The notes beneath the pieces were generated by a model. That model did no database searches. It was not told the DNA's origin and saw nothing but the letters and a program-made list of their open reading frames with translations. From Ruminococcus sp. (GTDB taxonomy: Bacteria > Bacillota_I > Bacilli_A > RF39 > UBA660), in NCBI GenBank assembly GCA_023663235.1, contig JAMPHW010000002.1, positions 82,680 to 130,642 of the forward strand: DNA of 47,963 nucleotides. The letters are read 5' to 3'. The position numbers were made by a program, and so were the translations under genes. Positions 28,789-30,941 of this stretch are shown here, in pieces. The number at the start of each line of letters is the position of its first letter. Within the stretch, counting starts at the first letter, position 1.

Positions 28789-29538
28789 TTATTTATCTAG
28801 TAGGTTATAAAAATTTAAAAACTCATATAAGTATGGAGAAAATACTTTTAAATCATATTTTGTATTTTTTATCATCCATAGTAAAATATCTATACAACTA
28901 TAAGTGTCATCAAGTTTAAGCAGTGTTATTTTATTTTGAGGAATAGTTATATTACTAAAAGTGTGCATATTCCAGTAATCCATTTTTTTACTATCCATTT
29001 TATGCTGTTTAGCATATACCGTTTTTAATAATTTTCTATCAAATTTTTGATGCTTTACTTCATCAATATCTTTATAAGAAAAATCTATTTCTTCCTCTAA
29101 ATTTAATAAGAGAAAGCAACTATTATCTAATATTTCTTTCATAATTTTAAAAGATTTGGCTTTAAAAGGTTTAAAATGAAATTCTAACCATACAATAATG
29201 TTTATTAGGCCAGCGATTAAATGACGAATTATAGGCATTTTCATAATAAATGTACAGAAACGATAAAATGGTATGTCAGCTTTTTGGCCTGGTAAATCAG
29301 TTAAGCGTTTAGCTATTAACCATCTTATCCATGAATCAAAAATAGAAAAAACCCCTTTAGAACCAATAGCAAAAAAGATTTTCTCAGTTAATTCAATACC
29401 AGTTGCACTCTCTCCTATTTTAGGTAGTAGTCCATTTTTATCAATACTAGGCAAATTATTAAGATTAGTATAGTGAAAAAAAGCAAAGTTATAATCAATA
29501 TCTTTTATATCTTTAATTTTAATGTTTTTTAAATTCAT
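28789..29538 (-). CDS. Unknown protein with possible ADP-ribosyltransferase-like N-terminus
   Basis: 249 residues. The segment F-F-H-Y-T-N-L-N-N-L-P-S-I-D-K-N-G-L-L-P (20-39), then I-G and G-I-E-L-T-E-K-I-F-F, resembles the H-x-T opening and x-I-x-x-x-G-L-x-P turn of ART/KptA-like folds. The hydrophobic middle (about 95-125) could be a buried helix pair or a membrane-associated part. No exact catalytic triad can be confirmed. It is the last gene of the five-gene group beginning at 32798. Confidence 0.45.
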   Translation of the reverse strand: MNLKNIKIKDIKDIDYNFAFFHYTNLNNLPSIDKNGLLPKIGESATGIELTEKIFFAIGSKGVFSIFDSWIRWLIAKRLTDLPGQKADIPFYRFCTFIMKMPIIRHLIAGLINIIVWLEFHFKPFKAKSFKIMKEILDNSCFLLLNLEEEIDFSYKDIDEVKHQKFDRKLLKTVYAKQHKMDSKKMDYWNMHTFSNITIPQNKITLLKLDDTYSCIDILLWMIKNTKYDLKVFSPYLYEFLNFYNLLDK

Positions 29539-29558: not shown

Positions 29559-30479
29559 CTATTTCTTATTTTTGCTAAAATAATCTTGAACTTTTTTAGT
29601 AGCCTCTTTGGGGTTTTCCAAATTATTTAAAAAATATGAATTAATTATTTTACCCATTCCTGTATAAGCTTTTATTTCACCTAAGTGTTGTTTTAAAAGC
29701 CAAATTTGATCTGTAAAGCCATTTTTTAATATTTCATAAAGATCTTCTTTACTACTCCATTTTATCTCATGTTCTTCTATTTCTTTTTGTTCAAGTTCTA
29801 AACAATCTGAATTTCCTAATTCTATGTAAAAGGAAGTTACAGTTGAATATCGATTTACTCCTTTATGAGCAGCATAAAAAACATTAGCCATCTTAAAAGG
29901 CATTTCTTTAATTAATTTAATATTATAAAAGCCACTTTCTTCTTTTAATTCGCGTAAGGCTGCTTCTTTAGGCGTTTCATTTTCTTCTATTCCTCCAGAT
30001 ATAAAACACTTCCAATCTTGCTTTTTATAATCTATAAATAAGTATTTATCTTCTTTCCAATTCTTTATAATCAAGATAACGTTCTCTCTATAGGACCATT
30101 TTTTATCTTCACGAGGCTTATTATCGTCTAAACTAGCATTTACTGGCATAATTATTTGCTTGATAGGCAATTTATTAGAATTTGCAAAATTGTAATCATA
30201 ATCATTATGAGCTGGAATACCAAGGTGTGGATCTTCTATATCAGTTAAAAATATAGGAATCTCTTCTTTAGTAATTGGGTGAATAGCATATTTATCCTTT
30301 AATTGTTTATTACTTTTTGGAACTAATAAAAAGGTTATACCAAAGATAAGATCAGGTCTATTTAATTTTACATGTATAGTTTCTTTTGATTTTTTTACAT
30401 TTAAATCTAATTCTAAACTTTCCAAATCATAATATTTTACTTTTCCATTTAAAAAATCTTTAACATCATTTCTCCACAT
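29559..30479 (-). CDS. Free-standing LeuRS-type editing domain with inserted Nudix domain
   Basis: 306 residues. Residues 34-110 follow the CP1 editing domain of leucyl-tRNA synthetase: R-P-D-L-I-F-G (41-47), a Y-A-I-H-P/I-P-I-F-L segment, P-A-H-N-D-Y-D (89-95) and L-P-I-K-Q-I-I (104-110). A complete Nudix domain is inserted at about 125-265, with a perfect box from G162 to F184 (REL-x-EE-x-G). The CP1 fold then resumes at A-Y-T-G-M-G-K-I-I-N-S (271-281). No catalytic or anticodon domains of LeuRS are present. In the T-rich position T-R-P-D-T has become N-R-P-D-L; the Asp of P-A-H-x-x-x-D is kept. Confidence 0.75.
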   Translation of the reverse strand: MWRNDVKDFLNGKVKYYDLESLELDLNVKKSKETIHVKLNRPDLIFGITFLLVPKSNKQLKDKYAIHPITKEEIPIFLTDIEDPHLGIPAHNDYDYNFANSNKLPIKQIIMPVNASLDDNKPREDKKWSYRENVILIIKNWKEDKYLFIDYKKQDWKCFISGGIEENETPKEAALRELKEESGFYNIKLIKEMPFKMANVFYAAHKGVNRYSTVTSFYIELGNSDCLELEQKEIEEHEIKWSSKEDLYEILKNGFTDQIWLLKQHLGEIKAYTGMGKIINSYFLNNLENPKEATKKVQDYFSKNKK

Positions 30480-30521: not shown

Positions 30522-30941
30522 TTAATTATTTATATAATGTATTTTAATTTCTATATTTCCTTTGCCATCAATGTATTCTAGCTCATAATCATAAGGTCTT
30601 TCATAGCACTTTACAACTTGCTCATATATATCTTTTAAGTCTTTTTCTTTACCTTTAAATTTTTCCCAAGTTTTAAGCTCTGGCAAATTAATTTCTATAT
30701 ATTCAGGTTTAAATTGGGTATTAGAAAAATCAATATTTTTTAATTTTTTTAAAATTTCTTCATTATTTATAACGCCTACAGCATAATCAAAGTATAAGTA
30801 ATCTTTTGTCCAATTCATTCCTAATCCTATCAGTTTTTCTTTAGATGCATAAGGTGTAAATAAAGCTAAATATTTATCTAATGTGTCTATTTGTTCCCAG
30901 TTAATACACCTAACTGTAATCTTATATCCTTTATATATCAT
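30522..30941 (-). CDS. Unknown protein, possibly GyrI/effector-binding-like
   Basis: 139 residues, soluble. An alternation of strands and helices, with L-I-G-L-G-M-N-W and Y-F-D-Y-A-V-G-V, suggests a GyrI-like small-molecule-binding fold, but the match is weak. It sits between the editing/Nudix gene and the HD gene, all in one direction with gaps of about 20-40 bp. Ribosome site AAGGATG. Function unknown. Confidence 0.45.
   Translation of the reverse strand: MIYKGYKITVRCINWEQIDTLDKYLALFTPYASKEKLIGLGMNWTKDYLYFDYAVGVINNEEILKKLKNIDFSNTQFKPEYIEINLPELKTWEKFKGKEKDLKDIYEQVVKCYERPYDYELEYIDGKGNIEIKIHYINN

Follow-up and report, generated by a model that had tools for sequence, protein, structure and literature searches.

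Editing domains that are detached from any synthetase and act in trans are represented by AlaX, YbaK/ProX and ThrRS-ED. The gene described here, located at positions 29559..30479 (−) of a 47,963-nucleotide stretch of DNA (the window; C22:82680-130642 of genome G000), likewise encodes a free editing-type domain without a synthetase (see also PMC3532385), but it differs from those factors in its LeuRS CP1 origin, in the loss of editing motifs, in the presence of a second enzyme domain and in that it is probably not a deacylase. With the CP1 domain of bacterial LeuRS (PF13603, TIGR00396) it shares the order and sequence of the core, including PAHxxxD, LPIKQVI and AYTGxGxxxNS; unlike that domain, it has no synthetase core, lacks the threonines, the GTG loop and about 40 residues after the threonine-rich strand, and contains an inserted Nudix domain. 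With Nudix hydrolases of the MutT/RppH/Ap4A-hydrolase/DIPP type (PF00293) it has in common a complete Nudix box and the fold, whereas its Nudix domain is embedded in CP1 and bears the signature F[YF]xxHKxxNR. A closer counterpart was found in LeuRS proteins of the same bacterial family that carry a Nudix insert of the same type (type A, see below) at the same CP1 site, the LeuRS of the same genome being 36% identical to the stand-alone protein; these Nudix-LeuRS proteins, however, are complete synthetases of 930-965 residues with intact editing motifs. A literature search that paired Nudix with LeuRS (leucyl-tRNA synthetase) returned no relevant paper, and no solved structure with the CP1::Nudix architecture was found.

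The stand-alone gene starts with ATG and encodes 306 residues; its assignment rests on the open reading frame, a full-length relative in L029 and dN/dS values (see below). All of its parts are on the minus strand. Pfam detected the CP1 family PF13603 in two stretches, the best at residues 62-120 (E=1.3e-17, 64.3 bits against a cut-off of 25), and NUDIX at residues 146-249 (E=1.9e-10). Sequence matches in the PDB were split in the same way: LeuRS covered residues 62-119, whereas the matches to Nudix enzymes covered residues 129-198 and extended further. When the protein was aligned by hhalign with Nudix-carrying LeuRS, 277 columns were colinear over residues 23-305 (E=6.9e-60), and alignment with plain CP1 gave 95 columns (prob 98.9). 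The N-terminal part of CP1 thus delimited by PF13603, hhalign, the structural model and Foldseek comprises residues 22-114 (30138..30416), and the Nudix hydrolase domain, defined by Pfam and VIA-align, occupies residues 127-268 (29676..30101). The Nudix box GGIEENETPKEAALRELKEESGF at residues 162-184 (29928..29996) satisfies the consensus GX5EX7REUXEEXGU, as the initial annotation had read it, and is followed by FYAAHKGVNR at residues 201-210 (29850..29879); alignments show that the latter motif also occurs in the type A insert of LeuRS and, in the form F[YF]xxHKxxNR, in free Nudix relatives. The LeuRS catalytic Rossmann core (HIGH, KMSKS) and the anticodon-binding domain are absent from the 306-residue protein. 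Pfam, hhalign and Foldseek uphold the proposal, made from the sequence alone, of a CP1-type domain that is split by a complete Nudix domain and is devoid of a synthetase core.

The structure was predicted by AlphaFold2 with an input of 16 rows (the window protein, its L029 relative, eight LeuRS CP1 N-terminal parts and six Nudix rows). The mean pLDDT of the model was 73; a single-sequence prediction gave 33. The CP1 region 22-110 was confident and LeuRS-like (mostly 80-97), and the Nudix region was mostly at 67-92 and weaker near residues 200-210. The first Foldseek hits were Nudix enzymes (2azw of E. faecalis, RppH, NudC and Ap4A hydrolases); among the others were editing-conformation structures of E. 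coli LeuRS with tRNA-Leu (8pot, 4arc; E about 3e-7). VIA-align superimposed Nudix chains on the model with Z of 13.8-16.9 and rmsd of 1.9-4.0 for 119-146 residues, mostly over 127-268; the rows of this comparison were Nudix chains only, which leaves the likeness to CP1 untouched. By both methods, the closest folds to the Nudix part are Nudix enzymes of the MutT/RppH/Ap4A-hydrolase/DIPP type. The C-terminal segment AYTGMGKIINS... (residues 271-302; 29574..29669) had been read as a return to CP1. This assignment is supported by hhalign to Nudix-LeuRS, but residues 271-306 were modelled with pLDDT below 50, and the segment is best regarded as putative CP1.

Stand-alone copies were found seven times, and six of the 386 genomes of the family carry one. 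The protein encoded in the window has a full-length relative with 69% identity in another MAG (L029), and a second subfamily of 276-278 residues shows about 37% identity to it (L010, L011, L034-L036). Between the window gene and that of L029, dN/dS was 0.24/1.87, or about 0.13, a rough ratio given that dS is near saturation; values between stand-alones ranged from 0.10 to 0.16. The stand-alone genes are under purifying selection. The genome G000 contains, on contig C11, a complete LeuRS in a 955-residue frame that scores above the family cut-off (952 bits), and an ordinary LeuRS of 809-816 residues is present in five of the six stand-alone genomes in which LeuRS was sought. The intact LeuRS elsewhere in the genome, the 69%-identical relative and the dN/dS of about 0.13 rule out that the gene is a piece of a broken leuS, the alternative that had been raised with the first reading. 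A phage or plasmid gene was also ruled out, as the stand-alone matched no phage or plasmid record and no relative was found in viral contigs.

The motifs of CP1 that serve tRNA editing were compared among stand-alones and plain and Nudix-carrying LeuRS. In the window protein, L-N-R-P-D-L (residues 39-44; 30348..30365) replaces x-T-T-R-P-D-T of the threonine-rich region, which is altered in all seven stand-alones (LNRPDL or similar instead of TTRPDT), and the position of T252 is occupied by Leu. The GTG loop (YGTGAIMA) is lost in all seven; in the window protein the site of the deletion, where six residues are missing, is at residues 84-88 (30216..30230). On the other hand, PAHNDYD (residues 89-95; 30195..30215), whose D95 aligns with the universal editing aspartate, belongs to a PAHxxxD motif that is invariant, including the aspartate, in the four aligned stand-alones and kept in seven of seven, and the Nudix box is complete in each of the seven. 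The threonine-rich region and the GTG loop are stated to be essential for editing (PMC7229842), the T252R substitution abolishes editing (PMC3834818), and isolated E. coli CP1 was reported to be inactive (PMC3532385). Judged from these motif states, canonical deacylation is unlikely and Nudix hydrolysis likely, and proofreading of tRNA-Leu by the stand-alones is thus unlikely. The suspicion voiced in the initial annotation that the substrate may not be mischarged tRNA-Leu is borne out by the loss of the threonine-rich residues and the GTG loop.

A search for LeuRS with a Nudix insertion at the same point, which had been suggested as a check, was positive: such a LeuRS is present in about 93 of the 386 genomes of this uncultured family (about a quarter), in frames of mostly 930-965 residues. 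The LeuRS of G000 is itself an example, carrying a type A insert at the CP1 site that is interrupted in the stand-alone, and the 36% identity of the two proteins extends over residues 55-304 of the latter. Two types of insert were distinguished, type A (FVMGGIE...FYAAHKDVNRH), to which that of G000 belongs, and type B (FIGGTI...HHYYAYNK); the stand-alones belong with type A, as seen in the 277-column alignment described above. The insert always lies in one CP1 loop, between QVI/QVL and the AYTxDGxxINS strand, and this loop measures 6-17 residues when empty, 154-157 with type A and 147-150 with type B. Fourteen unrelated LeuRS in viral contigs all have an empty site, and the Nudix part of the profile has no counterpart among solved LeuRS structures. 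Among 39 Nudix-LeuRS proteins, TTRxDT and YGTG are kept in 38 each, PAHDxRD in all, and the full Nudix box in 37, the other two having an imperfect box by the pattern used. Since both sets of motifs are kept, these proteins look like editing synthetases that would have a working Nudix enzyme. One MAG (G391) has three LeuRS frames (C50, C61, C80), two with the insert and one without, which may be due to contamination (5%). In samples of 392 genomes of the phylum and 247 of the class, Nudix-LeuRS or this Nudix was seen only in the family itself. The genome samples were drawn from this family, class and phylum, and the CP1::Nudix architecture may occur outside the phylum; Nudix-bearing LeuRS annotations may exist in Patescibacteria.

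A tree of 70 LeuRS cores, built with the insert columns removed and with SH-aLRT support only, placed type A, type B and empty sites interleaved over three deep core lineages. The changes counted on this tree were 15 for type B, 18 for empty and 9 for type A, of which 14, 15 and 8, respectively, were forced by starred branches. Type B formed one clade in the Nudix trees (98/98 and 100/100). When the 28 type B genes were considered, the core alignment rejected the Nudix tree (AU p 7e-44), and the Nudix alignment rejected the core tree (AU p 5e-75). In the congeneric pair L081 (empty) and L091 (type B), the cores are about 96% identical and the DNA is about 91% identical up to the junctions QVLE and DGIH. 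L091 and L023, on the other hand, share 80% identity in their inserts but only about 56% in their cores. The interleaved types, the conflicting type B trees and the L081/L091 pair argue for a cassette-like horizontal exchange, and there is strong evidence for movement of the insert between LeuRS genes whose cores remain in place. The Nudix module appears to behave as a horizontally exchanged cassette within an essential gene, with repeated gains, losses and swaps between species. MAG artefacts are unlikely to account for a pattern that recurs in about 93 genomes, some of which have contigs of over 100 kb. Immediately ahead of the insert, the sequence is conserved in every lineage (72-94% in windows of 50 residues) and could serve as homology for recombination. 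CP1 itself has apparently been exchanged as well. Further closely related leuS genes that differ in carrying the insert are L139 versus L013/L037, L142 versus L064, and L148/L149 versus L023. Within a single genus, g1 (L001, L012, L014, L015, L084, L086, L139, L141, L148, L149), three deeply different LeuRS core lineages are present, pointing to the replacement of whole leuS genes besides that of the insert.

The stand-alones formed one clade in the tree of CP1 plus Nudix (99/99) and in the tree of CP1 only (99), with very long branches in the latter. We consider it most likely that the stand-alone originated when a copy of the CP1::Nudix module was released from a type A Nudix-LeuRS; the direction from LeuRS to stand-alone is inferred from CP1 being at home in LeuRS and from its interruption by the insert at the same point in both. 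The Nudix-only tree, which is unrooted and has long branches flagged, speaks against a LeuRS-first descent, for in it the stand-alones were split and two of them adjoined free Nudix proteins. Free Nudix proteins of 162-166 residues with F[YF]xxHKxxNR are encoded at L097:1726-2214, L098:1810-2307 (−) and L099:2315-2815; they are related to the type A insert, which may plausibly derive from such proteins.

Directly upstream of the stand-alone in the window is a gene for 139 residues (30522..30941 (−)), the homologue of which (L030:4781-5200, 68% identity) also precedes a stand-alone remnant of 41 residues in L030 (L030:5404-5526). Downstream, after 20 bases, lies a gene for 249 residues (28789-29538 (−)) that gave no Pfam or PDB match; its start, HYTNLNNLPSIDKNGLLP, presumably resembles ADP-ribosyltransferase-like proteins. 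In L092, L094 and L096 a stand-alone of the second subfamily ends a conserved run of genes (L092:1886-9619, L094:355-4642, L096:564-8652) for a CMP-kinase-like protein, a variant radical SAM protein (NF045502), a phosphoribosyltransferase-like protein and a CYTH protein, preceded in two genomes by HAD, second CYTH, methyltransferase-like and LysR-like genes. The CMP-kinase-like protein (L094:355-1002) matches models of viperin-associated kinases (pVip-kinase, E=1.2e-29; VakA, E=1.9e-14), and the radical SAM protein matches NF045502 variant_rSAM but none of the viperin models of PADLOC. Only these three of the 386 family genomes, all three with an ordinary LeuRS, contain the phosphoribosyltransferase-like gene. 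This run suggests a modified-nucleotide context or pathway; it is absent around the copies of the window, L029, L093 and L095, and may have nothing to do with the stand-alone.

Taken as a whole, the comparisons make it somewhat probable that the stand-alone is a Nudix phosphohydrolase for which a degenerate LeuRS CP1 domain serves as scaffold, most likely released from Nudix-LeuRS. In this family, a copy of the CP1::Nudix module would have been set free from LeuRS; its Nudix site would carry out metal-dependent hydrolysis of a nucleoside polyphosphate or a similar nucleotide-diphosphate compound, and the CP1 part, with PAHxxxD kept, would dock the substrate or a partner rather than deacylate tRNA. 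The parent module in LeuRS retains both the editing and the Nudix site, lies at one fixed CP1 loop and passes between LeuRS genes of distinct lineages; recombination within the conserved CP1 flanks is the probable mechanism. Against this explanation stand the invariance of PAHxxxD in the CP1 part, which would be needless in a mere scaffold, and the imperfect Nudix box of two of the 39 LeuRS inserts. The invariance of PAHxxxD, with the editing aspartate, together with the confident LeuRS-like model of the CP1 N-part, is what one would expect of a trans-editing factor whose CP1 part deacylates an aminoacyl-nucleotide or a mischarged tRNA, with the Nudix domain as an accessory; such a factor is nevertheless improbable given the seven-of-seven loss of the threonine-rich region and GTG loop (PMC7229842), the Leu at the T252 position (PMC3834818) and the reported inactivity of E. 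coli CP1 alone (PMC3532385). The same loss bears on the earlier idea of two cooperating active sites, both acting on one aminoacylated or modified nucleotide. Both halves are retained together under purifying selection and both sites are intact in LeuRS, but the catalytic motifs of CP1 are gone in the stand-alones, and we give that idea little credence. As to a decaying fragment of leuS, the 41-residue remnant in L030 is the sort of relic that such decay would leave; the open full-length frame with its own start, the length conserved in seven genomes, the dN/dS of about 0.1 and the intact LeuRS elsewhere in the genome render it extremely improbable.

Two further readings are special cases of a Nudix phosphohydrolase freed from LeuRS. 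One could envisage that the Nudix domain of LeuRS clears the Ap4A that the synthetase produces, and that the stand-alone does likewise in trans. The presence of Ap4A hydrolases and RppH among the nearest sequences and folds is in agreement with this; matches of Nudix folds, however, do not tell substrates, and the patchy, exchanged distribution is left unexplained, so that we view Ap4A control as possible but on the whole not likely. The other reading, which does not exclude the favoured explanation, is that the Nudix domain in LeuRS destroys a nucleotide-type inhibitor or toxin of LeuRS, the stand-alone being a soluble immunity or decoy form and the patchy gain and loss reflecting an arms race. 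Recurrent gain, loss and exchange at a single position of an essential gene fit it, as do the nucleotide antibiotic TM84, which targets LeuRS and is accompanied by a dedicated self-immunity LeuRS (PMC5059758), and the three genomes that combine an ordinary LeuRS with the conserved run containing the viperin-associated-kinase match, radical SAM, phosphoribosyltransferase-like and CYTH genes. No such inhibitor is known, however, and four copies lack the run, which may be unrelated; we regard protection as unlikely. Its more specific form, in which the Nudix domain is an exchangeable protective cassette at a fixed LeuRS site, selected by nucleotide-type inhibitors or toxins, with the stand-alone as a freed soluble immunity protein, is doubtful to a slightly greater degree.

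The editing domain and the Nudix enzyme are each of an already known kind; what would surprise specialists is that a domain cassette is exchanged within an essential synthetase. A second enzyme inside the proofreading domain of an essential aminoacyl-tRNA synthetase raises the question of what selects for Nudix at the editing site. The closely related natural LeuRS pairs with and without the insert provide test material for the role of the Nudix domain, and the stand-alone is a small protein with which the Nudix substrate can be sought apart from the synthetase.
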